From a virus: a stretch of 64,000 nt of DNA. Positions 11,440 to 64,000 of this stretch are shown here, piece after piece; positions within the stretch are counted from its first letter, which is position 1; every line of letters begins with the position of its first letter. The notes under the pieces were generated by a model. That model worked only from the letters and a program-made list of their open reading frames with translations, was not told where the DNA came from and did no database searches. Both the position numbers and the translations under genes were made by a program. Where the stretch lies: the IMG/VR virus record IMGVR_UViG_3300020159_001521, positions 49,681 through 113,680 of that record. One strand, given 5' to 3'.

Positions 11440-11757
11440 ATGAAACTAAGATTTGGTGGTAGCTTACAAATAGGAGATCCTATTTTTATTAGTTATGGAA
11501 GCAGTGTAGACTTTGGACTATTTGCAGGATATGGAAAAGGAACTATACAATTTTATACTCCCACTGGTATAATATACCAATACGAAAACGCAATAGGAAA
11601 AGACAAAAAACCAAAGTTCTGGAAAGCATACATACATGGACAGAATATAGAATATAGAGTGGTGAAGGTGAATCCAGAAGTGCTATACAATCGTGAAGAC
11701 ATAGAAAACTACGAGAAAGCAATTGCAATTTTAAAACAAGAAAACATAATCAAATGA
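11440..11757 (+). CDS. Hypothetical beta-rich protein (105 aa)
   Basis: Starts with MKLRFGGSLQIGDPIFI and continues with Gly/Tyr-rich strands (GLFAGYGKGTIQFYTPTG), suggesting a small beta fold, then a charged helix to the end. No family recognised. It ends in an ATGA overlap with the rIIA-like gene, so it is probably translated with it. No membrane segment. Confidence 0.65.
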   Translation: MKLRFGGSLQIGDPIFISYGSSVDFGLFAGYGKGTIQFYTPTGIIYQYENAIGKDKKPKFWKAYIHGQNIEYRVVKVNPEVLYNREDIENYEKAIAILKQENIIK

Positions 11758-39589: not shown

Positions 39590-40555
39590 TTAATAAGTTT
39601 TATTTAATACAAAAATATCACTGTATATACTGTTTCCTGCATTGTTACTTCCCCACTGAACTGTGATGTTTAATGTATTACTGATTGTGGTGTTAAATGT
39701 TGTATTGTTAACTACGTTAAATGCAAATCCTTGAACTGATGCATTACTTGTTTTAGCGTAATGGAATGTTCCTAAAGAGACGATAGATGCTACGCCAGCT
39801 GTTCCTAGTTGTCTGATTGTGAAATCTACGTTTAAAGAAAACACATCATTTGTAATATTTGTAATTGGTTGAGCTCCACTGTCTAATAAAATGACAGATC
39901 CTGTTTTCACTCTAATTCTTATAGTTTGGTTGTTGGCAGCGTTTAACACTCCTCCCATAATAGCTCTGAAGCTATCTCCAACAGCAAATCCATTAGCTGG
40001 AACACTTAATGTTCCTACACCTCCATTTATTAATGATGTCTCTACTGTTGTTCCTGTTACGGGAGTGCTGTTAGCTGTCTCAGCAAATAGTCCACCACTA
40101 CTTATAGGACCTGGAGGACCTTGAATACCTTGCACACCCTGAACACCTTGTATTCCTTGAATACCTTGAATGCCTTGAGGACCCTGAGGTCCTTGCAGAT
40201 CACCTACATCATCCCAAGTGGTTGTTGCTGTATTCCATACATATAGAGAACCATCAGATTCAATAATCCAAGCTGTGCCTGCTGCACCAGGACTACCGCC
40301 AGCTCCTGCTAAGAATGCTGCAAGAGTGGGATAGGAACCAAGCACTGTAAGAGCAGCACCTGTTTCTCCTTGAGGTCCTTGCACACCTTGGATTCCTTGT
40401 ATACCTTGAGGACCAGGAACACCTTGAGGACCTTGTGGGCCTACAATAACAGATGCAACATCTTTTATGAGAAGGTCTAAATTAAGCCAGCCCTTGTAAC
40501 CGTTGCACGGTTTACAAACACTTTCCCAAAATCCAGTTTTGACGAACGTAGGCAT
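39590..40555 (-). CDS. Collagen-like tail fibre (321 aa)
   Basis: The anchor MPTFVKTGFWESV, then GYKGWLNLDLLI, is followed by two collagen-type Gly-X-Y runs (PQGVPGPQGIQGIQGVQGP and a second GPQGIQGIQGIQ run), which should form triple helices. The C-terminal part is a beta-rich knob (TVQWGSNNAGNSIYSDIFVL). A thin flexible fibre is expected. It shares its anchor with 29723, so both may bind the same tail protein. Confidence 0.85.
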   Translation of the reverse strand: MPTFVKTGFWESVCKPCNGYKGWLNLDLLIKDVASVIVGPQGPQGVPGPQGIQGIQGVQGPQGETGAALTVLGSYPTLAAFLAGAGGSPGAAGTAWIIESDGSLYVWNTATTTWDDVGDLQGPQGPQGIQGIQGIQGVQGVQGIQGPPGPISSGGLFAETANSTPVTGTTVETSLINGGVGTLSVPANGFAVGDSFRAIMGGVLNAANNQTIRIRVKTGSVILLDSGAQPITNITNDVFSLNVDFTIRQLGTAGVASIVSLGTFHYAKTSNASVQGFAFNVVNNTTFNTTISNTLNITVQWGSNNAGNSIYSDIFVLNKTY

Positions 40556-40785: not shown

Positions 40786-41538
40786 TTAATTTTTTCTCTT
40801 ACCGTCATCTTGAGTGGCATATTTAATACCCATAATTGTTCCTACTATTGAAAAAGCATTTGTTAATAGTACACTAAACATGTTACTCCAAGTTGAACCA
40901 ATGATCTGTGTATCCTTACCAGTGATCATAGCCATCCAATATAAAGCGGTTGTTATAACACCCACCCCAACAATTACTATCAAAGCAACCACTACAATTG
41001 TCTTAATTAACTCGGATTGACTTTTCTTCATCAGTACATCCAAGTCATTTAACGCAGCATTCTTCTCTACTTCAATTGCATTTTTCAGTTGCTGTGATTT
41101 ATCTAACTCAGTTTGCAAATCTTTTGAAAGAGCGTCTATTTTATTTTTGCTATTGACAGTTTCTGTTATGTCAGTGGCAATCTTCATAACCTTAGTGATA
41201 GTACCGCTTTCATCAAATATTGGGTTGTAAGTTGCTTGTAGATAGATAGAACTTCCGTCAATTTTCTTTCTCTCAAACTCACCTTCATAGAACTTACCGT
41301 TCTTTAAGGTTTCCCAAAACTTTTTATACTCATCCGATTTTGAATATTCGTAGCTAACAAAAATGCTATGGTGTTTTCCAATGAGTTGTTTGTGGTCGCC
41401 CTCCTCATATCCCATCGCTGATAGGAATATAGAATTCATACCTAATATATAACCGTCAAGGTCAAAATATATAATGGCATTACTTCTATTGATTGCTTCA
41501 AGCCTACTTAATAACTCTTCTTTAGATAGGTTTTTCAT
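40786..41538 (-). CDS. PAS-domain membrane protein at the end of the lysis cassette
   Basis: Residues 15-125 form a PAS domain of the type found in chemoreceptors: AIIYFDLDGYILGMNSIFL, GKHHSIF, KFWETLKNGKFYEGEFER and QATYNPIFDESGTITKVMK. A charged coiled coil follows (about 126-178), then two hydrophobic segments (179-204 and about 218-238). There is no kinase, HAMP or signalling output domain. Its ATG abuts the stop of the small membrane protein before it. It may sense a small molecule or redox state and act at the membrane, perhaps on lysis timing; that is inference. Confidence 0.85.
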   Translation of the reverse strand: MKNLSKEELLSRLEAINRSNAIIYFDLDGYILGMNSIFLSAMGYEEGDHKQLIGKHHSIFVSYEYSKSDEYKKFWETLKNGKFYEGEFERKKIDGSSIYLQATYNPIFDESGTITKVMKIATDITETVNSKNKIDALSKDLQTELDKSQQLKNAIEVEKNAALNDLDVLMKKSQSELIKTIVVVALIVIVGVGVITTALYWMAMITGKDTQIIGSTWSNMFSVLLTNAFSIVGTIMGIKYATQDDGKRKN

Positions 41539-41814
41539 TTATTGAGCTGTTACGCTATCAATAACTACACTATCAACAATCTCAATATCTGTAATTTCTA
41601 CAGGAACAGCTACACTATCAGCAGGAGCAGTAGCAAAAGCATCGCTTACAAAGTTGATAATTGCTTCAAAGTTCAATGACTCTTCGCTAATATATCCTTT
41701 CTGAGTAGCAAATACTCCAGCAGCAATAACCACTGCAGATAGAATGATTACAATAGGCTTTTTACCTTTGAACTTACCGATTAAGGGCAACAGTTTACTT
41801 ATTAAATTTTTCAT
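41539..41814 (-). CDS. Small membrane protein, holin-like (91 aa)
   Basis: A basic N-terminus (MKNLISKLLPLIGKFKGKK), one strong hydrophobic segment (about 21-39, IVIILSAVVIAAGVFATQ), and an acidic C-terminal tail (ITDIEIVDSVVIDSVTAQ). A one-span topology with the tail outside or in the periplasm fits a holin or anti-holin. It lies between the two-span protein and the PAS gene. Holin identity is inferred from cassette position. Confidence 0.65.
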   Translation of the reverse strand: MKNLISKLLPLIGKFKGKKPIVIILSAVVIAAGVFATQKGYISEESLNFEAIINFVSDAFATAPADSVAVPVEITDIEIVDSVVIDSVTAQ

Positions 41815-41818
41815 ACTT

Positions 41819-42076
41819 TTAATTTATGTTTTCGTTATTATCTTTTTTGTTAATGAACTTATCTACAGATGCTATACCAAAGGAACCTAAAGTTAACCAC
41901 AGGAATGAATTGAATATAAAGTCTTGCACTACTAATTCCTTACCTAAAGCACCAGTGATGATGTCAGCAAAAGCAAACCCAACCATCATTAGGAATGCTA
42001 AAAAACCAATGAATGATTTTTCATTTATGTTGTTGTCATCACTGAATAGCGATTCAAAGAACTTCTTCATTTTCAA
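41819..42076 (-). CDS. Holin-like membrane protein, two spans (85 aa)
   Basis: A charged N-terminus (MKMKKFFESLFSDDN), two hydrophobic segments (KSFIGFLAFLMMVGFAFADI and NSFLWLTLGSFGIASVDKFI) and a basic tail (NKKDNNENIN). It is the gene directly after the M15 endolysin in transcription order. Class II-like topology; probably the holin that times endolysin release. Confidence 0.7.
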   Translation of the reverse strand: MKMKKFFESLFSDDNNINEKSFIGFLAFLMMVGFAFADIITGALGKELVVQDFIFNSFLWLTLGSFGIASVDKFINKKDNNENIN

Positions 42077-42538
42077 TCATTTAAAGGGTACGTAAGATGT
42101 CTTTCCACCAGATTTAACAGCCTTCAAGATTTGCTTACGTTGCTTACCAGTTGATTCATAAGATACATGTACCCAGTCAGGATTATTGTCTGTACCAAAT
42201 TCCCAAATAAGTTGATCAAATACTAAGTTATTCTTAATAAAATCAAATATTTGTTTGTTAGTAATAGAGGTGCCATCCATATCCAGGTCAATCGCTTCGC
42301 CCGAACAATGTTGTGAACTTAAACTTCCCCCAATCGCAACATTGAGCTCTTTTGATCTGTAGCCAGAACTGATGTGGATGGGCACTTTAAAATGTTCTCT
42401 TATAGGCTCAAATATATTCTCAGCCAGCTTCTTAAAGTTCTCCAGATGTTCTCCAGAAGGAGTGTTGTTAATACCTTTACGTTTAGCAGTTTCACTTCTG
42501 CTCACCTCAGCTAGAGATAGATGTTTTGAAATTTGCAT
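42077..42538 (-). CDS. M15-family L,D/D,D-peptidase endolysin (153 aa)
   Basis: The zinc ligands of M15 peptidases are visible: ISSGYRSKELNVAIGGS, then LSSQHCSGEAIDLDM (His77, Asp84) and DWVHVSY (His124). The N-terminus (LSLAEVSRSETAKRKG) is the usual M15_3 start. It cleaves peptide bonds in peptidoglycan, most likely after release by the adjacent membrane proteins. No signal peptide. Confidence 0.9.
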   Translation of the reverse strand: MQISKHLSLAEVSRSETAKRKGINNTPSGEHLENFKKLAENIFEPIREHFKVPIHISSGYRSKELNVAIGGSLSSQHCSGEAIDLDMDGTSITNKQIFDFIKNNLVFDQLIWEFGTDNNPDWVHVSYESTGKQRKQILKAVKSGGKTSYVPFK

Positions 42539-42544
42539 AGTTTA

Positions 42545-43156
42545 TTATTTTTTAAGTTTTATTTTCCAATAAGCTCCTGCACCATATTGTAGAGCACCTT
42601 GTGTATTTATTCCTAAAGAACCTCCAAACAGAAAATCATTTTTAGTTTTTAGAATTGCTCCCATACCTATTTGATTGATTTCAGGAGATGCTTGGATGGT
42701 TCCTCCTACATATAGTTGCGTTACTTTTTTTGCAGGTAGGGTGATAGTTTCTTTTATAATAGGATAGCGAATGTTCACCTGTGAAGACCTACCTGTAATA
42801 ATGTTCTTTTGAACAGTGTCTGTAATAAATACATACCCATTACTGTCTATACGTATACTATCTGAGTGGATGTTCTTGGCTAGTAGTGTATTTACTACCT
42901 CCTGATATTGAATAAGAAGTTTGGCGTAGTTAGTATCTGGTATATAATGGTTGATTATAGTGTCATGTGATTCCACCTGAATAGTGTTGATCACTTTTGG
43001 TTTACTAACTATCAAAGAATCCTTGACAACCCATGTAGTATCTCTCACCACTGTAGGCACTCCAGGATCTACAGATTGGGAACATTTCTGAAGAAGGATG
43101 GTTGCTAGTAATACAACTATTAGTATTTTAAAAAAGTTGTTCTTTATAAACTGCAT
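42545..43156 (-). CDS. Membrane-anchored beta-rich protein, possible spanin (203 aa)
   Basis: A short N-terminal anchor (FFKILIVVLLATILLQKC), a Thr/Val-rich periplasmic region, and a C-terminal Gly/aromatic beta end (YVGGTIQASPE, GAGAYWKIKLKK) that could reach or enter the outer membrane. The Cys after the anchor is preceded by Lys, so a lipobox is not convincing. The lysis neighbourhood suggests it joins the membranes like a spanin, an inference; it also resembles DUF6808-type proteins. Confidence 0.55.
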   Translation of the reverse strand: MQFIKNNFFKILIVVLLATILLQKCSQSVDPGVPTVVRDTTWVVKDSLIVSKPKVINTIQVESHDTIINHYIPDTNYAKLLIQYQEVVNTLLAKNIHSDSIRIDSNGYVFITDTVQKNIITGRSSQVNIRYPIIKETITLPAKKVTQLYVGGTIQASPEINQIGMGAILKTKNDFLFGGSLGINTQGALQYGAGAYWKIKLKK

Positions 43157-43157
43157 A

Positions 43158-43469
43158 TTAACCTTTTAGATTATAATAAATAGTAGAGATGTACTGACCT
43201 AGAAGCAAAAGTGCACCTATGATGGATATAACCCAGTAAACCTTCTTTCTGAAGTATTCATCTCTTTGTTGCTTCTTCTCAAGAATATAAATCTTTTCTT
43301 TCAACACTTCAATATCATCCACAAAGCCTCCTCTCTTTGTTAAGGAGTTACCAAGGATTGCCTCAACCACTTGATTCAATTTTTTATCGATAGAATCTAT
43401 TTTCTCTTCCATCTCTGTGAGTCTAATTTCCATCTGAGAAAGTTCTGCTGTTATGTTGCTGTTTTCCAT
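43158..43469 (-). CDS. Coiled-coil protein with C-terminal membrane span, XhlA-like (103 aa)
   Basis: Residues 1-65 form a long charged coiled coil (EIRLTEMEEKIDSIDKKLNQ), followed by IYILEKKQQRDEYFRKK and a hydrophobic segment (YWVISIIGALLLLGQYIS). This is the hemolysin XhlA-like layout of phage lysis cassettes. First of the cassette in transcription order, nine bases from the fibre gene upstream. Confidence 0.7.
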   Translation of the reverse strand: MENSNITAELSQMEIRLTEMEEKIDSIDKKLNQVVEAILGNSLTKRGGFVDDIEVLKEKIYILEKKQQRDEYFRKKVYWVISIIGALLLLGQYISTIYYNLKG

Positions 43470-49626: not shown

Positions 49627-52600
49627 TCACCTACCGCTTTCTTTCTGTATAGTTACATCAAACTCTCTAGCAAAATCTTCATTGAATATAGCAAGATAGG
49701 TTACCAAAGATTTAGTTACAGGAGCCACCTTCATCAGATTCTTAATTGGCTGAGCTTTTTTTCTAACATCCTCTATAGATGTTTGGGGATCTAGATCCAT
49801 GCCTGTAGTTTCCATGGCAAAGTGTTTAGTGAACCTACCAATGTCCTCAGTAAGACCTAGTGCTGGAAATATTCCACCACTTAAGGTTCCAGATATGCCA
49901 CTTGGGGTGTAGAAGAATAGAAGTTCATCAGCAAACTTACCAAACACCTTTTGAGAATATCTGTGAAAGTTTTTAGTTGCTTTATCCTCATCATCATCAG
50001 GAGCAACAAATCCTAGAGAAAGCAACACACCCATAAGAGAAACCAGTATAGCAAGTTCCTTCACCTGATTCCTAAGATTGGTTCTAATGAGATCAATGAA
50101 ATCTTCTCTGGACATATTTAACTTTTCTCCAGTTTCAAGTTCATATTTTTCTCTAAACTCTTCAAACATCTGATCAAGTCTTTCCAAACCAGCATCATTT
50201 AGATAAAGTATATTTTTTAGATTGGCTGCACCTGTAATTATACCATCACCTAACACATGGGTTAGAAGCCTAATTCTACCAATATCATATTTCTGACCTT
50301 CAATAGATCCATCGTCTGTAACTCTTACAGAGAAATCATCTACCACTTTTCTAAACTCTCCAAATCTTGTATCAATAAGTTTAGGAATCCAGTTTTTGAA
50401 CACCATCATGGACTTTGTCCATACAGACATTGACATTCTATTGATATTCTCTTTAGTCATTGAACCTGTAGCATTTGCTGCCATACGTCTGGACAGGTTT
50501 GTAAGACGTTGAAGTTCTTCTATATTATTTAAATCAAGTCCAGGTATTTCAAGTTTTCCATCAACAAGTTTCTTTGTCTTATCTATAGATTTTGTTTTTT
50601 TGAGCTCCTCTATTTCATTTTCAATATCATCTTTTACAGCATTATAACTTGCCGCTGAGTCATATCTGCTTTTATACTTATTCCTCACATACTCTCTGAT
50701 ATTTACAATCTGACCATTTACTACCATGGAGTTTTGCAACAAGGTTAGGAATACAGACTTTTCAATCAGTATTTCAGGCTGTCTCATAAAGAACATCAAT
50801 GTATCACTTAGATTTCCCTGAGTGAGTTTTGACATACCTGCTTGTTTGTACATTTCATAAGAAGGATCATCTTTTAGAGGCATGAAGGTGTTTATAAGTT
50901 GTACAAACATTTCTTTGTCCTCATTATTATCAAATCTCTGAAATGTAAGTTTTGCCTCATTTTTGGCAAACTCCCTAGCTTTAAAATAGTTTCCTGCTTG
51001 GGTACTTAACTGAATGTTACCACCAAACATATTTACAGCTCCAGATATAAACTCAAATCCCAAGGTTTTTAGTTGGAACGCCCTATTAGCAGCATCTATT
51101 GTTTTAATCAGTGAACTTGGTTTAGGATCTTCATCTTTTTTCCAAATCTCTTTACCAGCCACTTTGTTAACACCATCTTTAACAAAGTTTAACACCTTTC
51201 CAATATTAAATGGTAAATCAGAATCATCAATTACATATTTCTGATCATACAACATTACTCTCAAGAAGTCATCATATATTTTTGTATTACGTTCATTACC
51301 CTCAATTTCTTTAGGTTTTCCATTTTCATAAACAACATTACCAATTCTGTCAGTATTGAGATGGCTCTTGAATTCTTCAATTGTTTTAACAAGTTTAAGT
51401 TGACCCTCAACATCTGTTAAGTATTTATACTTATTAACTTGTTGAATATACAATATAAGATTTTTAAACAAATCTTCACTTACATCAGAATAATCATTCA
51501 CTCCATCCTTAAATGTAAAGTCTTTTGTGTAGTATTTAGGGATACTGTTCTCAAGGGCACCAGTAACTTCATTAAATTCCCCATATCCTGTATCATCAGG
51601 ATTGAGTTGTATACTCTTATAAAAATTGTCCATAACAGACAATCTATTATCCCAAACTAGCTCTTCAGCCATAGACTTCCTTACAAAAGGAAGGAATATC
51701 TTTGACATCTGATTACTTATGTATCCAGTATCTTCAGCCTTATTGTTAAACTTTACAATAAAGTTATAAAGCTCCATCAGTTCAGGATCTTTCTGAAGAT
51801 TTTTATATTCTTCAGAATACCATTTTGCAAGAGGGTGTCTTTTTATGATATGGTTTTTCCATCCATCAAAGTCAATCCTATCTATATCCCACTTACGTTT
51901 AGCCTCTTCTATAAGCCTTTCTCTTGTAGCCTTTTCTTCTTCTGGTGTACCTGCATACCTATTTCCTTGTATCTTCTTTATTTGATCCTTCAGCTTTTCT
52001 TCAGCCTCTTTCTTATATGCTTCAACATCAATATTTTGTAAAATCCAGTTTTTATCTCCACCATCTTCAGCTTTTTCATCCACTTCACTAAAGAATTCTC
52101 TTTTGTATTTATATATCAGTTTGTTTACAATCTTACCCTTGTCATCTTTCTGATACACTTGTTGAACAAGTTTTCTAAGATCTCCTCCTCTTTTAGCAAG
52201 CTTCTCTCTAATAGACATAAGTTGACCTACTTCACTTAATGCATTCTTGGCAGCTAAACTTTGAGCATTATTTACAAGTTTTGTAAGAATCTCTACAGAT
52301 CTAAGTGATATATCTGCAGCACCTCTAAACATAGAGGCCAATCCTTTTAATACCTTTTCTGGTTTAAGAAGTCCGAAGGTTAAGTTTCTTTCACCAATAT
52401 GCTTGTCAGCAAATGCCATGGAGGCTTTATTGATTGCCTCTCTAGAATCATAAATAGCATCAGATTCTTCTCTTAGTTTTCTTAAAACTTCCTTTCTTTG
52501 AGCAACATTAGCTTTTTCTTCCTCTGTAGTGGCTTCAGCTTCCATTTGAGGAGTGTATACAAGCGTTCCTATTTTTCTACCAATGTTTACAAATATGTCA

Positions 52601-55600
52601 GAAAGCTTGATATAGTTATTCATGTCATCTGCAAAATCAGATAATTCATCATTCTTAGAATCACTAGATCTAGCAGATCTGTTCTTGTATATTGTATTAT
52701 AATCCTCAAGAATCCTATCGCCCTCTTTTCTCATCACCTCAATCACATCAATAAGAGGAGCAATGTTCATTGTTGTTTGGGCCAAACGAATTGCTTTTCT
52801 AAGTGTGTTCAAACGCTCTATCTTAAACTCACGCTCTTCTTCATCCCCTACCTCCTCTTTACCAATCTGAGCAAGAAGACCGTTCATCTTTCTAAGAATC
52901 TCATCCAATGCTTCAAATCCTGTGGATTCTGTTTCTTCAGATATAGGAACTAGTCTCAGGTCTTCAATCTTGCTAACATCCACTGAACCAATAGCTATAC
53001 CTCCAAGGTATGAGCCAGACTTAGGATCTCTGGGATTTTTGAGTTTAAACTCCATAGCTATTGGAATAGCTCTTGTCATTCCAAACTCTTTAATGCCATA
53101 GTTCTCACGAAGCATCTTCTTGTATGTACCAAGCTGAATGTTAAATGCTCCCTGCTTGAACCACGCAACATCATCTCCCTTAATATGCATAAACTTCCAG
53201 TCAAGGATGTGTGCTTTACCTGAAGGTTCAATAGCAAGAAAGTCTATAGTACCAGCTTCTTTATTTTTCTTGTCATAAACAATCACCTCGGAAAGAACAA
53301 TTGTTTTTGGATCAAGTGTATCTAGAAGATCTGTAAAATACTTTTCAAGCTTGTCATACATTTCCTCAGACAGATTACTGAACTTAGTAGGTCTTGGTTC
53401 TGGAGAAGTTCTTCTTGTTCCATCCTTATGGAAATATCTAGCATGTATATTTTCTAAATCTTTATGTCCTTGTATACCAAGATCTCTCTTTAGCTCATTA
53501 AACTTCTTCTCTTCAGGAGTGAATTGTTTGTCACCAAACTTACGCTTATACCAAGCCTTCACCCTATCTGTAACCCTCTTCTCAATTGTTTCAAAGGTAC
53601 CATCTGGTTTCTTTCTTCTGTAATAGTTACGTGCTTCTTCTGAATCAAGTAATACAGGTTCTACCTTAGTCTCATCTTCCACCACCTTTTCAATTTCATC
53701 CTGTGTAGCAAAAATCTTTTCTTGTATAGTTTTTTGATTATCAGAGAGTTGAAACATTAAACCACCTTCTGTTATGTCAGCAACTGTACCAATCTCACCA
53801 GCAACAATCTGAGCAGCAGCTTCTTCAAACAGGGAGATGTTAGATTTTCTATATATTCCTCTAATCCAATCAAGGATGGTATTCCACCAGCTTCTTATAA
53901 GAGATTGATTAATCTCCTCTCTCAGTTCTGGGTATTGTTCAATGTTCTCATTATCATTAATAATCACCTCAGCAATAAGCTTATCAACGGCTTCCATCTT
54001 AATCTTACGAATGTCTGGCTTACCATTAGGAAGTTGATAGTTCTTATTGTTCTTATACTTATCAAGTGTTTCTTTATAGATTTTAAACCTATCAATCTTG
54101 CTTATCATTTCTGTGACAAGCTTAGGATTGGTTTGCTGTAAGATTGATCTAGCTATGTGAACCAGCTCCTCTGTAAGAGCCACTCCCTCTTTTCCTTCAG
54201 CTAGAGCAATCACACCTCTGGTAAGATCTGCCAAACCATTAACACCCTTAGTGTCCATATCTGGATTACCTTTGGCATAGTCTGCAAGTTCCTGAATATC
54301 AACACCCATTTTCCTAGCAGCCTCTTTCACCTTGTTCAAGGTTTCTGTAGAAGCTTTAGACATAGGCATTTCTTCTTTCTGAAGAAGAACAGATTGCTGT
54401 TCTCTTTCAGAAACTATCTCCACCTCATTCCACGTATTACCATATTCATCTGTAACCTGCTTAGGAGCATATCCCTGCTTCTTAAGAACATTGGCTACAG
54501 TTGTTTCATAGAAGTTGTAGATGGGTTTAAGAGCACCAAACCCTTCTGTCTCAACTCTTTCAAGTTCTTGTTCTAAAGCTTTCTTTTCAATTAAGTTATT
54601 TTGGTAAATATTTAATTCATCTTCTGTAAGATTTATTTTAATTTCATAAGTAGGATTACCTTTATCATCTATCCATTTTTGAGCTTCCTCTTTTGTTTTA
54701 AATTCTGTAGAGATATAAGTTCCTGTTTTTGTGTTTTCTATCCTAACAGTATATCTTAAATCTCTAATATCATATAATTCTCTTTGTTCTATTTTAAAGT
54801 TTTCTTTAACTTCACCTTTGGTAAGTTGTTCATTTATTTGTTTTAATCTAGCTTCTTTCTGTTTCTTAAACTCTTCTAATGTTGAATGACCTTCTATCTT
54901 ACTGGCTGTATTACCAGAAGGGAATAACACTTTCTCATATCCTTTCTTAGCAGAGTCTTGTATAATAGATTTAACAAAGAATGTCACCCAGTTAGATCCT
55001 TGGTTTAATAGTTGAAGAAATTGATTTTCTTTTGATGTAGGATTTAACCAAACATCAGCTTCTTCTTGTGTTTTAAATCCAGACTCTATAATACCTACTT
55101 GTGTATTTACAACTGCCCATGTACCATCTGATTGTTTTTCTATCTTATCAGTACTATTGTCTGGTTTTTTAGAAATTAAATCTTTTCTATCTCTGCCTTT
55201 CTGAAATAAATCAGATTGTACTTCTAGTATTCTACGAGTTTTAGGTTCTTCTTTTAATACTGCATCTTCAATTCCCCATTCTGAAGGGGCTTCTTTATTC
55301 TCAGCAAAACCTTCTACTATTGGAGCCTTATCATCACTTCTAAACCAACCAATACCTTTATCTGTAGCAAACTGAGCATGACCTTTAATAGATGGGGTGA
55401 TAGCTGGTGTAGCTATTTCATTCTCTGTATAATTAGTTCCTCCTGGAACTGTTAAATTAGCATAGTATTGAGATGGTTTTTCAACATAAACTTCTCCTTT
55501 TGATTCTAAATAATTTTTTACAAAATCTTCAAATTCTTTTGTACCATATTTTAAACCAGCAGCTCTAGCTTCACCAATAGCTTTCCCTTGATTTTTACCA

Positions 55601-55983
55601 ACATTGCCACCTTCTGTACTTAAATTAATCTCAACAGCAAAGCTATAGTCAGCTAACATATTGGTAATCAACTGTTCTCTGTCTGTAGTGTTGTATTGCT
55701 TGAGAAGCTCTACTTGTTCTTTAGGAATACCAAGATCAGCCTGCATCTTCTTCCAGAAGAAATCACCAGATATTTTATTCTTAATTACGCTGTTAAAGAA
55801 TTGATCTGCTTTAGGAGATTGCAAGATGCTTGTAGCTTTTAATCCAGATTTTACAATGGATTCCCTACTTTCACTCTCAGGAACATTACCATCATACTTA
55901 TCCCACAAGGCGTATGCCACATCTTCACCTCTAGCAGTTACAAGATTTTTCCAAGAATCAAGATTTATGTTAGGACATGCCAT
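49627..55983 (-). CDS. Giant polyvalent virion protein with PD-(D/E)XK nuclease domain (2118 aa)
   Basis: The N-terminal 540 residues include RRILEVQSDLFQKGRDRKD and YNFYETTVANVLKKQGY, typical of large polyvalent phage proteins. The region near residues 650-690 reads ALTEELVHIARSIL, a possible degenerate peptidase helix. Residues about 800-950 hold a nuclease fold: GTIDFLAIEPSG (Asp914) and HILDWKFM (Asp928, Lys930). The C-terminal third is helical with a hydrophobic segment near 1972 (ELAILVSLMGVLLSLGF). Its partner is the RNA polymerase gene, separated by three bases. Likely packed in the virion and injected; that is inferred from crAss-like relatives. Confidence 0.75.
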   Translation of the reverse strand: MACPNINLDSWKNLVTARGEDVAYALWDKYDGNVPESESRESIVKSGLKATSILQSPKADQFFNSVIKNKISGDFFWKKMQADLGIPKEQVELLKQYNTTDREQLITNMLADYSFAVEINLSTEGGNVGKNQGKAIGEARAAGLKYGTKEFEDFVKNYLESKGEVYVEKPSQYYANLTVPGGTNYTENEIATPAITPSIKGHAQFATDKGIGWFRSDDKAPIVEGFAENKEAPSEWGIEDAVLKEEPKTRRILEVQSDLFQKGRDRKDLISKKPDNSTDKIEKQSDGTWAVVNTQVGIIESGFKTQEEADVWLNPTSKENQFLQLLNQGSNWVTFFVKSIIQDSAKKGYEKVLFPSGNTASKIEGHSTLEEFKKQKEARLKQINEQLTKGEVKENFKIEQRELYDIRDLRYTVRIENTKTGTYISTEFKTKEEAQKWIDDKGNPTYEIKINLTEDELNIYQNNLIEKKALEQELERVETEGFGALKPIYNFYETTVANVLKKQGYAPKQVTDEYGNTWNEVEIVSEREQQSVLLQKEEMPMSKASTETLNKVKEAARKMGVDIQELADYAKGNPDMDTKGVNGLADLTRGVIALAEGKEGVALTEELVHIARSILQQTNPKLVTEMISKIDRFKIYKETLDKYKNNKNYQLPNGKPDIRKIKMEAVDKLIAEVIINDNENIEQYPELREEINQSLIRSWWNTILDWIRGIYRKSNISLFEEAAAQIVAGEIGTVADITEGGLMFQLSDNQKTIQEKIFATQDEIEKVVEDETKVEPVLLDSEEARNYYRRKKPDGTFETIEKRVTDRVKAWYKRKFGDKQFTPEEKKFNELKRDLGIQGHKDLENIHARYFHKDGTRRTSPEPRPTKFSNLSEEMYDKLEKYFTDLLDTLDPKTIVLSEVIVYDKKNKEAGTIDFLAIEPSGKAHILDWKFMHIKGDDVAWFKQGAFNIQLGTYKKMLRENYGIKEFGMTRAIPIAMEFKLKNPRDPKSGSYLGGIAIGSVDVSKIEDLRLVPISEETESTGFEALDEILRKMNGLLAQIGKEEVGDEEEREFKIERLNTLRKAIRLAQTTMNIAPLIDVIEVMRKEGDRILEDYNTIYKNRSARSSDSKNDELSDFADDMNNYIKLSDIFVNIGRKIGTLVYTPQMEAEATTEEEKANVAQRKEVLRKLREESDAIYDSREAINKASMAFADKHIGERNLTFGLLKPEKVLKGLASMFRGAADISLRSVEILTKLVNNAQSLAAKNALSEVGQLMSIREKLAKRGGDLRKLVQQVYQKDDKGKIVNKLIYKYKREFFSEVDEKAEDGGDKNWILQNIDVEAYKKEAEEKLKDQIKKIQGNRYAGTPEEEKATRERLIEEAKRKWDIDRIDFDGWKNHIIKRHPLAKWYSEEYKNLQKDPELMELYNFIVKFNNKAEDTGYISNQMSKIFLPFVRKSMAEELVWDNRLSVMDNFYKSIQLNPDDTGYGEFNEVTGALENSIPKYYTKDFTFKDGVNDYSDVSEDLFKNLILYIQQVNKYKYLTDVEGQLKLVKTIEEFKSHLNTDRIGNVVYENGKPKEIEGNERNTKIYDDFLRVMLYDQKYVIDDSDLPFNIGKVLNFVKDGVNKVAGKEIWKKDEDPKPSSLIKTIDAANRAFQLKTLGFEFISGAVNMFGGNIQLSTQAGNYFKAREFAKNEAKLTFQRFDNNEDKEMFVQLINTFMPLKDDPSYEMYKQAGMSKLTQGNLSDTLMFFMRQPEILIEKSVFLTLLQNSMVVNGQIVNIREYVRNKYKSRYDSAASYNAVKDDIENEIEELKKTKSIDKTKKLVDGKLEIPGLDLNNIEELQRLTNLSRRMAANATGSMTKENINRMSMSVWTKSMMVFKNWIPKLIDTRFGEFRKVVDDFSVRVTDDGSIEGQKYDIGRIRLLTHVLGDGIITGAANLKNILYLNDAGLERLDQMFEEFREKYELETGEKLNMSREDFIDLIRTNLRNQVKELAILVSLMGVLLSLGFVAPDDDEDKATKNFHRYSQKVFGKFADELLFFYTPSGISGTLSGGIFPALGLTEDIGRFTKHFAMETTGMDLDPQTSIEDVRKKAQPIKNLMKVAPVTKSLVTYLAIFNEDFAREFDVTIQKESGR

Positions 55984-55986
55984 GTT

Positions 55987-58900
55987 TTAACATTTGTATT
56001 TTTTAATTAGTATACCAGCTTCAGCTAAAGAGTAACCCATTTTCTGTAACATAGCTGTATTTATAGAAGAACCATCATATGCCTTACCATCTTTTAATAT
56101 TACTTTTTCACCACTTACACCTTTAGAAGTTTCTTCCTTACCTGTACTAAATGGTCCAGCTGTTCCTTCAAAGAATGCCACCACTGTTGTATCATCCACC
56201 TCATTTTCTACAGGGATGAATCCGTTGTTTATCTTGCTTTTTTTTGCATGATCATAGAACTCATTAGCACTGAAGTATCTACCCTCTTCCTGATGACTGT
56301 CTCCCCAGGCATTTATCATCTTGTATACAAACTGAGGATTACCAAAGAAGTCTTCAATCATATAAGGTTGACCTCCATTGTAAACCTTCTTGAATAGTCC
56401 TTTTTGAATGTAAGACAAATCACCTCTAGCCCTAGCTTCTTGCTTATCTTTCTTTGTACCTACCTCCCAAGAGAATACAATTACATCATCTCCTGCTTGT
56501 TTAGAACGACTGTCAAGTCTGATGAGCTGTGGGATTTTACCATCTGTCATTGCTTTTTTGACATCACCAAATCCTCTACCCCACTTAAGTTCACTGTAAT
56601 AAGGAGGTCCAGTGTATATAGTTTTTCCCTCTGGTGTAATTTCTTTAGGAAACTTCATCTTACCTTTTCTATATGGTACTATATCATCATCGTTCCAGTT
56701 GTTTCTTTGGAAAACATCCAGGTCTGCAAAGTCCTCTAAGTTAGTAATTTTTTCTAATTTAGATAGAACTTCGTTGTATTCTTCTTTAAAATCCTGATAA
56801 GGAAGAAGAGATGTGAATGATATAGGAGAGTTTGACAAACCACTCTGAAGAACAGCCAGTTTTACAATCTTCTTATAGAGAGGACTATTAATACCATTTA
56901 GGTATTTTCTGAGCTCCTCAAAAGAATAGATTACCTGGTTCTGATCATAAACTTTGTTTGTCTTATTATTCAGTTTCAGATTCTGTACACTATTATCCCT
57001 ACTAGAGAAGTGAGGAGTGAACATGTTTATCACTTGATTGTTGTACAGAGGATGTTTGCTGTTAGCTTTCACCTCTTTAACAAACTTATCCACTTCTTTA
57101 GCAGCATTATTATCAGACAGCAATATTGACTCAATCTGAGCATTTGATCCTCCTTTTACCTGCACAGCCCAATCAAATAGGTCGTTTACAATCTTTTGTG
57201 CTATCTTAACAAACTCTCTATCTGGCATATCCACATATGGATCAAGCACCTTCTGAACTACATTTCTAACAGTTGGATGATCAGACTTAAGAATTTCTGC
57301 AAAAGCACCTCTTATATTGTCTAGCTTCTCACGAAGATCACCTATGAAAGAATTGTCCAATATTTTATCTACAGAAGAAATTATTGTGTTCTGAGCTTTT
57401 TCGTATTGTCTTAACTTCTTGAAGATCAGGTATGGGTCATTGAATGTTGAGGTGTCAAAGTTTGATCCTTGTGTCACCTGGAACATTTGATTAGCCATCG
57501 TGGCATATTTCAAGAACTCATTCAGTACAAAGTGCTGGTTGATTCTTTCATCTTGGTCAAGCTTTTCCTTACCTATGGTTTCGTACATCTTTGTTGCTGA
57601 CGGTAAGGTTCTAACATCATTGATAGACCTAGATGTTCTATATTTATCAGACTCTTTGATGTTCTTTACAAATTCATCAATAAACAACCATGAATATCCC
57701 TCATTCTCAATCATGCGCAGATAATCACGAATAATGGGTTGGTTCATGAAATAAGCCACAGTTTTGATAGGAACACCAGCCTTAACCAAGAACAACCATG
57801 TAGAAGCTACATTTGGTGTAGCACCAAGTTCCATGATCCATGGACCTTTGGATATATCCACATATCCATCGATGAACATACCAATGATATCAGAGATGTT
57901 CTCATTAGCTTTGTTCTTAATCATAGACAAAGTGGTAACTGATTTACCATCTACATCAATCTGATTAAATTCATTGTCCTTAAATTTAAGAATAGCATCT
58001 CTTCTATCTTTAGTTCCTCCAGTTATCCAGAACTTATCTGTCTCACTGAGGTTGTCAAATCTGTCAAGATCAATATAAATAGGCACTCTCTGGTTCAAAG
58101 AATGGTTTGTTTGGTTCACAGCAGCAATACCAATTGCATACTTACCTGTAACAAATGCATGTCTCAACCTTGTCATATAATCCCTACTAATCAAACTACT
58201 AGTGGAGGAAGAATCAAGTTTTTGCAAACCAAGCTTTTTGGTAATATCACCAGCAAGGTCCTTCAGAGGATCTGCTGAGTTTGGTTTGATGAGGTTGTCA
58301 AAGTTGAGAGGATGAGAAATAAGATTCTGCATAGATTGGATGTACTCATTCTCAAGAGATTTCTTGTACATTCTGTCCATAAATTCATCAAGAAGCATTT
58401 CCTGAACATCATAATCAGTGAGCTTGTCTAGTTTCTTTCCAAGCTTCTGAAGCCTCATCATGAATATGTCCTCAACGTTCCTAACATTCAATTTACCATC
58501 TATCACTTCTTCAGAGAAGAACTGTTTGAATAAAGGAACCCACTTAGCTGTGGTTTTTTCTTTTGCTTGTCCTAAGGCAATGTCTCCAAACATTGCTTGA
58601 AGGTTTGTTTGAGAAAGTTTCTTAGCTTCAGCTCTGTCAATTTTGCTTTGAAGAATATCATAGAATATGGGTTCATATTTACTTCTTGCATCATCCCCAA
58701 TTCCAAAATAAGGAATCAATTTGAGCTGACCCTTTGCATCTATATATGTATTCTTCAGATAGATGAAGAGTTTATCTATATCAAAGTCAGATCCTACCTT
58801 TTTAACAAGCTCTGAAGGAATCACAACAGAGTCACCAAATTCTTTAGGAAGGAACTTTTTGATTACAAAGCTATCGATAGAGTTTTGCTTTTGTGTAGGA

Positions 58901-61900
58901 ATACGAAAAGCCACACCAGATAGTATTTTCTTTCCTTCTTCTGTTAGTTTTGTACTTCTTGTGCCATCCTCATTTTTTTCATACCACATATCAAGAAGCT
59001 CTTCATCAGACAAAGGACTACTAAACCATCTACCAATCATTATTTCACATACACGCTCACCGTCTTTCTCATAAAACTTAAGACCGTTCTCTGTAGAGAA
59101 AACCTTACCGTCTTTACCTTCAGCCTTCAAGCGATTGGATTCCATGAATGTAGAAGGAATCTGTACCTTCTGACCACCACTGATTTTAGGACTAATTACA
59201 TTTTTATCAGCAATAGAATAAAGAATATTTCTTATCTGCTGATATGCAGGGGTAGCTTCAAGAACAGCATCGCCTGCTAAGAATCCAGCCAGAGAATCAG
59301 AAACATTATCGTTCACTTCTCTTTTAAGAATCTCATCACGTAGGGTTTCAGCAACTTTTGAGAAATCTTTAATTTCAAATCTACGTTGACCATCTACAAT
59401 AGTTTCCTCAATACCCATCTTCTTCAGGAGGGTTTTGTATCCAAAATCTGTAAGGGCTTTAAGTAGTTTTTCGTTAGTTTTTATTTCATTATAAAGATTG
59501 TCACCACCATTATAAGAAGTTTTATCAGCAAGAGCATTCCAAGCTATATACCTCTTTGTAAAGTCTTTCTCTTCAGACATAAAGTCAACAGGCACACCTG
59601 CTTGCATGAAGTCCATAGTAACAAGTTTGGTCACCTGAGAACCTCTTGTTACAACAGCTTCTTCTTTAGAAGGAACCTCTGATTGTACAGATATGATGTT
59701 GAACGGAACATTTACAATTCCTTCAAACTCAGACTCATTGAATGATCCATCTTCATTATATACATCGTTAGTTCCCTCAGCTCCCACCTTTCTACCACTC
59801 TGGAACACACTATAGTCAATCTTTTCATTCTGCATTTTCTCATAGAGCTTAACACCATTTGAAGAGTTGTTAATCTCTTTCATGATTCTATAAGACAGAG
59901 GATAAAGAGCAAACTTGTCAAGCACCACATCATTAAAACTTTGACCATTAGCTTTATCACCAGCCACAATAGGCTTATATGGAGTGTATGCACTCATCAC
60001 TTCTGGATTACCAGCATTTAGAAGCTTTTGCTCTTCAGGAGAAACAGATAAGCCTTTATCTCTTTTCATCCAAGCTATATCATATCTATATTGCTTTTCC
60101 TCATTATCATTCCAGTCAGCAGCCCTAATTCTGAGAACACGGTATGCCTTATCTTTTATAATACCACTACCGTCTGTCTCATCATAGATTCCATAATCCT
60201 TCAGAGCACTTGTTGCTTTTACATCGGTAAGGGTGGTTGTGCGGAAGAACTCCTGAGTCATGTCTGTATATCCAACATCATCCTTTTCATATCCCTTGTT
60301 CCAAATCCTATCGAATACCTTGTTCATTTCTTCTGAACTATGAACAATAGCTTGGCGTGGTGAAAGAAAACTCTTGATACGTTTGAGCTCATCTGAATAT
60401 TGATATGGATCAGAATACAGAAGTTTATGCAATTCAATATTATTGATCACATAGTTGATTGTCAGTGAGTTAAGTTGTCTATTCAACGCTTCATCTGAAA
60501 CATTGTCAGTTTCCTGAAAACCAATATTTTCTACAGAATATCCTTCAGGAGATACACTAATAATATTATAGTCTGTGAGAGTCTTTTTCAAATTTGCGGA
60601 CTCAGTCTTAATAAACTGTTGTACAGCAGCATTTATCTTTTTCTCAAAAGAATTATAAACCTCTAATGCGGACCTCTTATCCTTCAATATATCTTTGTGC
60701 AGGGAAGGATCGTATGCATCAAGAATAGGTTTAAGGAACCTCAAGTCTTTATTGTTCCTATCTTTTGCCACCCTTCTATCAGATCTAGAGAGTTCCAACT
60801 CAGATATGAAATAACCTTTGAATATGTTATTAAGTGTATTGTATCCAGTGGTCAACAGTTCATCTGGGTTAATATGATTACCCATAAATGTCATGTGCTG
60901 AATAGAAGCATCTCCAGGTACAAGGTTGTAATAGTATCCTTTTAGATTCAGATTAATCTCTTGTATAAGACGTTCTCTGAAATTCAACTTAGAAGACTCT
61001 TTCTTTTTACCATTGCTACGATTGATGGTACCATCAGCATAACCAGGCTTCATAATATTCTCTGTCTTACCCTTACGTTCTCCAGATTTATAGTTGAAAA
61101 TCTTAGAAAGGATTACAGATGTTGGAACTTGATTTCCTTCAGCATCTGTATATGACTTAGAAAATGCATCAGTGACTAGGTATTCATATGGGGTACCAAT
61201 TAGATCATCGAGACTTTCCACCTTGGATAAATAGTCAAACAGATCGGAGGATGGGTTAGTTCCTATGAAGGTTTGTGTGCGCTCACCCTTAACATTAAAG
61301 AATGTGCTATCAAACTCAGGATTATCAATCGTGGCTTTAATTGTAGCAAGAGACATAAGCCTACCATCAATCTTCAGCACCTTACCACCCATTGTAACAA
61401 TCATGTCAGTCTTCTCAATACTTCTCTTGATACCTTTTACAGCATCTTTGAATGTATCTTGTACATTTCCAGGGAGCTTAGCTATATCTTCTGCTTTAAA
61501 TTCAATGCCTAAAGTTTTGAGAAAAGCCACCATCTTATCAATTTCTGTAAGGGCTCCCTCTGGTTTGAATTCACCAAACTTAGCAACACCAGCAGGATTA
61601 CCTATATATGCTTTTCTATCCTGAGAGTATACAAAGTATGGATTCTTTCTTTTTACAAGATCAATGAGTTCATTAACATATCCACTCTTCACTTGTCTGG
61701 CTGCTGTAGCAAGATTGGAATCACCCACCTCAACAGCCCCATCTTCAAATATAAATACGTTCTTTACATCTGGATTATATTTCTTGAATGTTCTCCAGAA
61801 GGAAGCCAAGAGTTGACCATCATGCACCTCTGTGATACCATCAAGACTATCTGTGTTTGCAGAATAATCCACCTTTGTCAAACGCCTATACAGTGTACGA

Positions 61901-64000
61901 TAGTTCGGATCATTTTCAGCCATCTCACGAAGCCTTTCTAACATTTCATCAGGGGTGCGAGATGTATGAACATTATTCATGACAGATATAAATGCCTGAC
62001 TTGCAGGAACCAACTTATATCCATTTATAGAAGAATAAACAGGTTTGTTATCAGAACCCATCACTGGAAGTGTAGAGAACAAAAGTTTAATAGCAGAATT
62101 AGCCTTTTTGAAAGTGTCAATCTTTCTAGCATCTACATAATCGCTCTCTTTCACCTTATCCTCATCCTTGAATTGTAATTCATCATTCTCATCAAACTCA
62201 ACGGAATATACCTTAAGGTATTCCTGATGTTTGTCTACAAGGTCTTTCCAATTCTTAGTTACATCTTTCCATAGCTGTACCGATCTATTAATCTGTTCGT
62301 TAGCAGCAGCTTCAGTGATCTTCTTAAGCTCTAAGTTTTTCGTTGCTTCTTTCCTACCCTTCAATACAGTTTTTTGGATGGCTGGCAGAAGTCTATTGTA
62401 CAACTCAGTTTTACTCATTGTTGGAATATTGAACAAACTTTCATTATCTTCAATGATTCCCCTGAGAGTCTGATAGGTCATTTCCTGCATAATATCATGC
62501 ACAGTATCTGCTGGCATTTTTACACGAAGTTCACTGTCTGCTGTAATATATGCTTCTTCAATATCAATAAATCCTTGTTTAGCAAAAGCTAAAGCTCCTG
62601 CTTCTGGAACATATTGCTTATAATATCCTGTGCCTATTTTTTCAAATAGGTTTGCAGTGTTAACCTGTGCTTTGTTTCCAGTAAAGAAGGTTTTGATAAA
62701 GTTTACAAGATCTGCAAATAGTCTGAGGATGAAAGGTTTACCTTCTGTGGGTTTAGCAGGAATTTTCTTATACAATACATAGTCCCTGAATTCCTCAGCT
62801 AGTTGTTCTTTTATTTGCTCATTTGTAGCTTCTGAAAACTTAACCTTTTGTCCTGTTGGTCTGTCTACAAACTCACCTTTTCTCTCTCTGAATTCTTTCA
62901 GAATTGCTTCTTTCTCAGCAGGATCAGCAAACAATTTCCATACACCTTCGAACACCTCATGATAGATTGTTCCCACCTCAGCATTCTCATATACATAGAT
63001 GGCACCATTCTTTAACATACCCCAGGCTTGCAAACCATTTGCACCCTTGAGAATATTCTTCACTCTATAGACAGGAATATTAGGAAAGTTTGCCTTGAGC
63101 CAAGCTTCGATTTTTTTCCAATCTTCTCTTTCAAATTCATTAGCTTGTTCTTCAATAATCTTACGCAACACAACATCATCGTCTGTCTCATCCATTTGTT
63201 GTTGCATAAGTGCTTCTTCCTCAGCAGTCACAGTAATGGTTGCTGGAAGTCTTTCTTCTTTCGCAGGAGCTTCTTCTTCCACCACTAATTCCTCTTCTTC
63301 TGGAACTTGCATTGCTTCCTCTTCTACAACTAATGTTGTTTCTTCTTCTTCCTCTGCTGGAACAAAAAGTTCTTCTTCACCTTCTGTCTCCTTAATTTTT
63401 GTAGCAATATATTGTTTAACAGCGTTTCTGATAGCTTCTTTTGCTTCATCCAGGGTTTTACCACTGTCTGTAAGTTCTTTCAAAACAGTTTCCAAATCTC
63501 CACCTTGGAGTATACCCAAAGCTTTAGGATTCTTTAAAGCTGCTCTTGTAGCTACAAACTTAATCTTTTTTCCTTTTGGAGAAGTGTATGTGTTTATAGT
63601 TTTACCATCTAGATCAACAGTTCCTTTAGGAGCTTCTTGAGCTGCTGGTTTAGGTGTAGCAGCAACTCTTGACCTGTTTAGTAAATCATCTACTGCTTTT
63701 ACTAATGCAGGATTACCTTTTTGATAAAGTTCAGAAAGTTCTTTAGCGTTTTTAAGATTATTACTTTTAAGCAGGTCGTAATAATCGTCCATCACTTTTC
63801 TTTCTTCAGGGGACAATTCTTTAATACGTGCTACATTCTTATGAATAACATCTAACTCTTTCTGTATTCCTCCTTCTAAAGCAGCTAGTTTAAATACTTT
63901 ATTTTCAAAATCAGCTCTATCAAATGTTTCTGTGAACTTCTCGCCATCAGGATAAGTTACTTGAGCTTCTACTGCATTAGCTGTAGCACTCAACACCTTA
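55987..64000 (-). CDS. Giant virion RNA polymerase of the crAss-like type, N-terminus outside window
   Basis: The frame is open to the right window edge, so the start lies beyond it; at least 2669 aa are visible. VGSDFDIDKLFIY (Asp at about residue 1737 from the edge start) matches the DFDID catalytic motif known from the phi14:2 virion RNA polymerase, in which three Asp bind Mg2+ for transcription. Earlier, near residue 346, YHEVFEGVWKLF looks like a degenerate zincin HExxH (Glu replaces the second His). A Glu/Val-rich low-complexity segment precedes it. It is expected to be injected and to transcribe early phage genes. Activity is inferred from the family. Confidence 0.85.
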   Translation of the reverse strand, partial: KVLSATANAVEAQVTYPDGEKFTETFDRADFENKVFKLAALEGGIQKELDVIHKNVARIKELSPEERKVMDDYYDLLKSNNLKNAKELSELYQKGNPALVKAVDDLLNRSRVAATPKPAAQEAPKGTVDLDGKTINTYTSPKGKKIKFVATRAALKNPKALGILQGGDLETVLKELTDSGKTLDEAKEAIRNAVKQYIATKIKETEGEEELFVPAEEEEETTLVVEEEAMQVPEEEELVVEEEAPAKEERLPATITVTAEEEALMQQQMDETDDDVVLRKIIEEQANEFEREDWKKIEAWLKANFPNIPVYRVKNILKGANGLQAWGMLKNGAIYVYENAEVGTIYHEVFEGVWKLFADPAEKEAILKEFRERKGEFVDRPTGQKVKFSEATNEQIKEQLAEEFRDYVLYKKIPAKPTEGKPFILRLFADLVNFIKTFFTGNKAQVNTANLFEKIGTGYYKQYVPEAGALAFAKQGFIDIEEAYITADSELRVKMPADTVHDIMQEMTYQTLRGIIEDNESLFNIPTMSKTELYNRLLPAIQKTVLKGRKEATKNLELKKITEAAANEQINRSVQLWKDVTKNWKDLVDKHQEYLKVYSVEFDENDELQFKDEDKVKESDYVDARKIDTFKKANSAIKLLFSTLPVMGSDNKPVYSSINGYKLVPASQAFISVMNNVHTSRTPDEMLERLREMAENDPNYRTLYRRLTKVDYSANTDSLDGITEVHDGQLLASFWRTFKKYNPDVKNVFIFEDGAVEVGDSNLATAARQVKSGYVNELIDLVKRKNPYFVYSQDRKAYIGNPAGVAKFGEFKPEGALTEIDKMVAFLKTLGIEFKAEDIAKLPGNVQDTFKDAVKGIKRSIEKTDMIVTMGGKVLKIDGRLMSLATIKATIDNPEFDSTFFNVKGERTQTFIGTNPSSDLFDYLSKVESLDDLIGTPYEYLVTDAFSKSYTDAEGNQVPTSVILSKIFNYKSGERKGKTENIMKPGYADGTINRSNGKKKESSKLNFRERLIQEINLNLKGYYYNLVPGDASIQHMTFMGNHINPDELLTTGYNTLNNIFKGYFISELELSRSDRRVAKDRNNKDLRFLKPILDAYDPSLHKDILKDKRSALEVYNSFEKKINAAVQQFIKTESANLKKTLTDYNIISVSPEGYSVENIGFQETDNVSDEALNRQLNSLTINYVINNIELHKLLYSDPYQYSDELKRIKSFLSPRQAIVHSSEEMNKVFDRIWNKGYEKDDVGYTDMTQEFFRTTTLTDVKATSALKDYGIYDETDGSGIIKDKAYRVLRIRAADWNDNEEKQYRYDIAWMKRDKGLSVSPEEQKLLNAGNPEVMSAYTPYKPIVAGDKANGQSFNDVVLDKFALYPLSYRIMKEINNSSNGVKLYEKMQNEKIDYSVFQSGRKVGAEGTNDVYNEDGSFNESEFEGIVNVPFNIISVQSEVPSKEEAVVTRGSQVTKLVTMDFMQAGVPVDFMSEEKDFTKRYIAWNALADKTSYNGGDNLYNEIKTNEKLLKALTDFGYKTLLKKMGIEETIVDGQRRFEIKDFSKVAETLRDEILKREVNDNVSDSLAGFLAGDAVLEATPAYQQIRNILYSIADKNVISPKISGGQKVQIPSTFMESNRLKAEGKDGKVFSTENGLKFYEKDGERVCEIMIGRWFSSPLSDEELLDMWYEKNEDGTRSTKLTEEGKKILSGVAFRIPTQKQNSIDSFVIKKFLPKEFGDSVVIPSELVKKVGSDFDIDKLFIYLKNTYIDAKGQLKLIPYFGIGDDARSKYEPIFYDILQSKIDRAEAKKLSQTNLQAMFGDIALGQAKEKTTAKWVPLFKQFFSEEVIDGKLNVRNVEDIFMMRLQKLGKKLDKLTDYDVQEMLLDEFMDRMYKKSLENEYIQSMQNLISHPLNFDNLIKPNSADPLKDLAGDITKKLGLQKLDSSSTSSLISRDYMTRLRHAFVTGKYAIGIAAVNQTNHSLNQRVPIYIDLDRFDNLSETDKFWITGGTKDRRDAILKFKDNEFNQIDVDGKSVTTLSMIKNKANENISDIIGMFIDGYVDISKGPWIMELGATPNVASTWLFLVKAGVPIKTVAYFMNQPIIRDYLRMIENEGYSWLFIDEFVKNIKESDKYRTSRSINDVRTLPSATKMYETIGKEKLDQDERINQHFVLNEFLKYATMANQMFQVTQGSNFDTSTFNDPYLIFKKLRQYEKAQNTIISSVDKILDNSFIGDLREKLDNIRGAFAEILKSDHPTVRNVVQKVLDPYVDMPDREFVKIAQKIVNDLFDWAVQVKGGSNAQIESILLSDNNAAKEVDKFVKEVKANSKHPLYNNQVINMFTPHFSSRDNSVQNLKLNNKTNKVYDQNQVIYSFEELRKYLNGINSPLYKKIVKLAVLQSGLSNSPISFTSLLPYQDFKEEYNEVLSKLEKITNLEDFADLDVFQRNNWNDDDIVPYRKGKMKFPKEITPEGKTIYTGPPYYSELKWGRGFGDVKKAMTDGKIPQLIRLDSRSKQAGDDVIVFSWEVGTKKDKQEARARGDLSYIQKGLFKKVYNGGQPYMIEDFFGNPQFVYKMINAWGDSHQEEGRYFSANEFYDHAKKSKINNGFIPVENEVDDTTVVAFFEGTAGPFSTGKEETSKGVSGEKVILKDGKAYDGSSINTAMLQKMGYSLAEAGILIKKYKC

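Follow-up and report, generated by a model that had tools for sequence, protein, structure and literature searches.

Lysis by phages is commonly portrayed as running on a fixed clock, to which T4-type lysis inhibition is the classic exception. The closest described phage systems, T4 RI/RIII and ICP1 ArrA, are membrane proteins by which the timing of lysis is tied to a signal from the environment (PMC7182436). Unlike the sensor family described here, they respond to superinfection and harbor no PAS domain, kinase or receiver, and no sequence relation to them was found. The phi21 pinholin S21, the product of a lysis gene, shares with our protein a two-transmembrane (TM) layout with a small/polar face on the C-terminal TM2. 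However, S21 is short, lacks a sensor domain and belongs to the fast-evolving holin set, and homology was not found. On the sensory side, the nearest systems are MmoS, NifL, Aer/AerC and the BdlA-type soluble chemoreceptors, with which the phage family shares the PAS fold, the N/H/W FAD triad, tandem PAS domains and a coiled-coil output helix. In PAS domains of the NifL, MmoS, Aer and AerC type, the determinants of FAD binding are an F-alpha Trp and a pocket His and Asn (PMC10468136, a PAS domain survey). In contrast to these bacterial sensors, the phage protein has no kinase, AAA or MCP domain, appears to use a C-terminal membrane hairpin as its output and is found on lytic-phage-like contigs. 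Bacterial two-component systems (PAS–histidine kinase plus receiver) also have a counterpart here, with the same HATPase_c domain, conserved His box and receiver D/S/K motif, but one that is phage encoded and whose third gene specifies a membrane-hairpin effector and not a DNA-binding output. Our search of the open literature found no relevant precedent for phage PAS domains and lysis or for phage kinases with lysis.

The window, a 64,000-nucleotide stretch of an IMG/VR virus record, encodes a 250-aa protein (40786–41538, minus strand, as are all features in this and the next two paragraphs) with the layout PAS–coiled coil–two TM segments, a putative one-component sensor-effector. Pfam identified PAS_9 (E = 3.7e-12) and PAS_3 (E = 1.8e-11) and no other family above cut-off; the MCP signaling domain is absent by the same scan. 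The preliminary description of this locus had recognized the PAS domain correctly but placed it at residues 15–125; its bounds are about 22–126 with Met = 1 (41161–41475). The structure prediction for which that description had called was carried out with AlphaFold2 and gave a moderately confident model (mean pLDDT 72.8, pTM 0.44), in which a PAS fold is followed by a single unbroken helix (residues 124–205 in 249-aa numbering) that runs from the PAS domain through the coiled-coil signaling region (41008–41160) into TM1 (40921–41007) and then by a second TM helix. The coiled coil and two hydrophobic segments noted earlier are confirmed, with TM1 seen by hydropathy as well as in the model. The loop and TM2 form a near-invariant 33-residue block, TQIIGSTWSNMFSVLLTNAFSIVGTIMGIKYAT (40813–40911), the putative output module.

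The sensor ATG immediately follows the stop codon of the neighboring ORF (41538/41539), as had been described. That ORF (41539–41814) encodes a 91-aa protein with one TM segment and no Pfam family at cut-off, and is preceded by a gene for a holin-like 85-aa protein with two TM segments (h85; 41819–42076), homologs of which adjoin the sensor gene in many loci. The two neighbors had been called holin-like; their TM segments are evident, but neither product reaches the cut-off of a holin family in Pfam or PHROG. The two-TM family (A3) shows a weak match to the T6SS protein TssN in 11/17 members (best E 3.8e-4). The M15 endolysin seen in the earlier reading is confirmed at 42077–42538 (Peptidase_M15_3 E 2.8e-19; PHROG 894 endolysin E 3.8e-37). 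Beyond it lie a 203-aa protein with an N-terminal hydrophobic segment (42545–43156), which matches no Pfam or PHROG family, has homologs in other cassettes and is spanin-like by layout and position only, and an XhlA-like 103-aa coiled-coil protein with a C-terminal TM segment (43158–43469; PHROG 937 hemolysin E 7.6e-5).

Foldseek with the window model ranked MmoS, an FAD redox sensor (3ewk), first, with NifL and many LOV proteins also matched, and phmmer recovered MmoS, phototropin LOV domains and Aer, with alignment to 8dik/3ewk. The closest solved relatives of the window PAS, MmoS, Aer and NifL, are FAD redox sensors. Residues W75, H57 and N35 of the window protein correspond to those that mark the FAD-binding PAS domains of clusters 4/9/14 (PMC10468136). 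The triad is kept in 146/146 PAS copies recovered by motif search from 120 unique homologs, 5 of which gave no match. Because it is kept in every recovered copy, the window-type PAS is predicted to bind FAD and to sense host redox or electron-transport state, and the redox sensing proposed earlier gains support, as a prediction, from the triad and the fold match. Approximately half of the sampled homologs contain two tandem PAS domains (370 aa).

The window locus is no chance arrangement, as there are hundreds of homologous contigs: at least 232 related viral contigs in IMG/VR were found with the whole protein as query and at least 551 with the tail, these contigs being metagenomic, their loci partly redundant and related, and the E-values of the scans those of candidate stretches. 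A scan of 84,980 species genomes of bacteria and archaea gave no member of the family, an absence that is strong but not absolute because the scan used few peptide seeds. The tail was likewise not found in 50,697 phage records, and no cultured relatives were found for the tail or for the stand-alone effector described below. The divergent L099 protein, used as a query, matched only itself. The best PAS match among phage records, MT836939, was discarded; this "Bacteriophage sp." record (MT836939.1, L144) carries a tandem-PAS chemoreceptor of bacterial type together with GGDEF/EAL genes and looks like bacterial contamination.

Comparison of the homologs reveals a marked difference in constraint along the protein. 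The 33-residue tail block is identical in 81/81 proteins, with its four-fold codons using all four bases at many positions, and in the tail-based search 32 of the 33 residues were identical in 141/143. Across 120 sequences the mean pN/pS is 0.046 in the tail versus 0.20 in the PAS, 0.22 in the coil and 0.27 in TM1, while pS is ~0.7 along the whole gene, so that synonymous sites are saturated. That 33 residues stay unchanged at synonymous saturation in most members reveals strong constraint and asks for a conserved target. The identity is no product of tail-based searching, since PAS-only patterns gave the same tail in 70 of 71 ORFs, the remaining one ending at a contig edge (70/70 resolvable); a DNA pattern in the PAS also recovered 59 identical tails and 1 near-identical tail, its other hits being incomplete genes, kinases, one bacterial-type receptor and a chance hit. 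An amphipathic face on TM2 is weakly significant in one frame (p = 0.04) and not significant in the other. Homology of the tail to the neighboring two-TM protein h85 was rejected (hhalign probability 1.3%), and the window protein matched no curated holin family in Pfam or PHROG at threshold, the best holin match being E 0.12 in 2/25 members. A weak match to PHROG 1544 in 24/25 members (best E 3.8e-4) was set aside, as that family is uncharacterized and absent from six reference phages.

Judged by gene order, the sensor gene is a resident of lysis cassettes, near an endolysin more often than expected. The preliminary description had held that its proposed link to lysis would fail if related phages carried the PAS gene far from lysis genes. 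In most cases the gene is close to them: of the 61 unique loci whose flanks reach 3 kb or more on both sides, 53 have an endolysin within 3 kb on the same strand, a count, like the others of linkage, of unique DNA sequences and not of independent events; at least six tandem-PAS loci are unlinked. All single-PAS loci (31/31) have a same-strand endolysin within 3 kb. In 12 contigs of 62–173 kb the endolysin is no more than 1.9 kb from the sensor, where random placement expects about 4–16% per contig; in one contig the distance is 9.3 kb. The sensor start also falls within 20 nt of the stop of the upstream ORF in 86/102 cases.

The endolysins themselves are of four unrelated kinds, M15, GH19, GH24 and the phrog_3000 enzyme. 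The last is "unknown" in PHROGs and was counted here as an endolysin because of PHROG endolysin matches and a peptidoglycan-binding domain in some members. PHROG 3000, which on these sequence features is probably an endolysin family, was seen in lysis cassettes at L016:7453-7995, L079:9410-10216 and L080:768-1559, two of them fused to a peptidoglycan-binding domain. At least 27 switches of endolysin family fall on the PAS tree, and for M15 alone well-supported branches force at least 9 gains or losses. The small TM partners vary between loci as well (h85, PF05105, phrog_199 and others). Every complete cassette examined contains another TM ORF besides the sensor, so the sensor is not needed as sole holin; the notion that it is the only membrane protein of a cassette was rejected, the apparent exception, L056, having a two-TM ORF below the hydropathy cut-off. 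Eight tandem-PAS loci lack a recognized endolysin, and two of these have an h85 holin-like gene directly upstream; the at least six that are not lysis linked are L060, L063, L065, L113, L119 and L210. At L060, L062, L063, L064 and L065 the tandem-PAS sensor gene adjoins nonlysis genes, with a 5'-3' exonuclease-like ORF beside it at L060, L062, L064 and L065.

A DNA pattern from the PAS loop also found contigs that encode a second arrangement of the same parts. Here, a 539-aa protein carries a histidine kinase (PF02518 E 2.9e-16) behind two TM segments and a pair of PAS domains, and its gene is followed by those for a receiver (PF00072 E 4.4e-8) and for a coil protein of ~225 aa. The latter has no PAS and ends in the same hairpin as the window protein, TQIIGSTWSNMFGILLTNAFSIIGTIMGVKYAS and close variants. 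This stand-alone effector shares 67% identity with the window protein across 107 aa (residues 136–242, E 1e-47), and the second PAS of the kinase is 54% identical to the window PAS. The structural model of the effector (mean pLDDT 84.3) shows a long single helix entering the membrane, followed by another TM helix. At each of the 37 unique effector loci with long enough flanks, a receiver is found no farther than 1 kb and a PAS kinase no farther than 5 kb away; a GH19, GH24 or M15 endolysin lies within 3 kb in 24 of these loci, and 13 are without one. The catalytic motifs are kept, the kinase His box RHDMHSGI in 57/57 and the receiver D/S-T/K motif in 48/48. A HATPase_c kinase with a His box plus a receiver is thus encoded by related phages but not by the window. 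The effector query matches at least 548 contigs, likely including fused forms. Apparently intact two-component systems occur on phage contigs as large as 304 kb (L228:4169-6915, minus strand; L340:5980-8700, plus strand; about 80 further loci, L339–L418), many near endolysins.

In all 20 contigs tested there is a single effector gene, PAS fused in 9 and stand-alone in 11; in contigs with the fusion, the match to the kinase is confined to its PAS part (15/15), such a kinase being absent there. Both designs share the PAS type at one end and the hairpin at the other, with either a plain coil or a kinase–receiver relay between, which argues that the hairpin is the effector. Because the same tail occurs without a PAS beside a phage PAS kinase and receiver, these gene arrangements indicate that PAS and hairpin are sensor and output of one signaling system, in fused (window) and two-component forms. 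The stand-alone effector in kinase operons strongly supports the earlier suggestion that the membrane helices act as output. The accompanying statement that the protein has no known output domain holds for Pfam, but the tail is an output module common to other phages.

Collectively, we propose that the window protein is a redox-gated one-component controller of membrane permeabilization and lysis timing, a reading to which we assign a probability of about 0.5. In this mechanism, the cytoplasmic, predicted FAD-binding PAS would sense the redox status of the infected cell or that of its electron transport, and the signal would run along the continuous coiled-coil helix into the two-TM hairpin. 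In other phages the same kind of signal would be relayed to the PAS-less hairpin by a kinase–receiver chain, since these phages encode such a hairpin beside their own PAS kinase and receiver. The switched hairpin may alter membrane permeability, presumably to ions, or the proton motive force, and may act as either trigger or brake. Holins trigger on loss of the proton motive force (PMC7182436, PMC9636201). Because this is a general holin trigger, a redox-gated permeability change would work with any cassette and could set lysis timing in it. Endolysins and small membrane partners change while the hairpin stays fixed, so it most likely acts on itself, on the membrane or on a host protein that does not vary, and not on one holin in particular. 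Against this mechanism count the 6–8 tandem-PAS loci that are not near a recognized endolysin, the 13/37 stand-alone effectors without a GH19, GH24 or M15 endolysin within 3 kb, the other TM ORFs of the complete cassettes and the weak significance of the TM2 face. The overall interpretation of the preliminary description is partly supported, in its lysis linkage, its membrane-helix output and, as a prediction, its redox sensing; the unlinked tandem-PAS loci speak against it, and it had missed that a phage two-component system has the same tail. More tentatively, such phages may run their own redox-sensing transduction into a dedicated membrane effector that times lysis, using two interchangeable designs, a PAS–effector fusion and a PAS-kinase/receiver/effector chain. 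If so, no earlier phage-encoded two-component pathway would have lysis as its output, and the effector would represent a new domain family.

The strong tail conservation across cassettes with different partners bears on several alternatives. Holins usually diverge fast; the slow change of the tail would equally suit contact with a conserved host protein and tells against the redox-gated controller. The tail might then act on a conserved membrane complex of the host, one for respiration, secretion or division, to reprogram or poison the host or to exclude other phages, and lie near the lysis genes because these form the late membrane-active module, as the loci that are not lysis linked would allow. 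Yet endolysins have been swapped again and again with the linkage intact, which speaks for a functional connection with lysis, and we consider this host-directed role unlikely. The same invariance weighs against a redox-controlled antiholin, in which the hairpin would insert into or block the cassette holin in an energized host and free it when the redox state falls, like T4 RI with an internal sensor. Sensing antiholins do exist, as T4 RI and ICP1 ArrA demonstrate (PMC7182436), and the sensor gene adjoins small TM proteins in all complete cassettes; however, a partner-specific contact should covary with h85, PF05105, phrog_199 and the other partners, whereas the tail is invariant, which makes the antiholin rather unlikely.

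That the window protein is itself a sensor-gated holin or pinholin would agree with its two-TM hairpin, the polar/small face of TM2 and the endolysin always present at single-PAS loci. We regard it as quite improbable, however, given that separate holin-like ORFs are nearly always present, that homology to h85 is lacking and that holins are rarely so conserved. PAS domains can also serve as scaffolds, and a PAS without cofactor could be a mere dimerization unit that senses nothing. The FAD triad in all 146 recovered copies, and the presence of the same PAS type at the head of a kinase that is intact, its H, G-box and receiver motifs being conserved, render this very improbable. To return to the redox-gated controller, a predicted redox sensor wired to a membrane effector near swapped endolysins, and mirrored by a kinase chain, suggests that the physiology of the host is gauged by many uncultured phages before they act on its membrane; these viruses probably time their action on the host membrane by sensing host state. 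The two forms, fused and split, provide a direct genetic handle on sensor versus output, and what sets lysis time becomes testable in a minimal two-domain protein.

Elsewhere in the window, two giant minus-strand ORFs (49627–55983, 2118 aa; 55987–63996, 2669 aa) have no PHROG match, and the "crAss-like" label given to this phage earlier was not confirmed. Just downstream of the sensor gene, 39590–40555 (minus strand) encodes a collagen-like GPQG-repeat protein, probably part of a tail fiber. The genome also encodes homologs of the lysis inhibitors RIIA (11754–14051, plus strand; PHROG 612 E 1.6e-58) and RIIB (14257–15717, plus strand; PHROG 609 E 1.6e-15).
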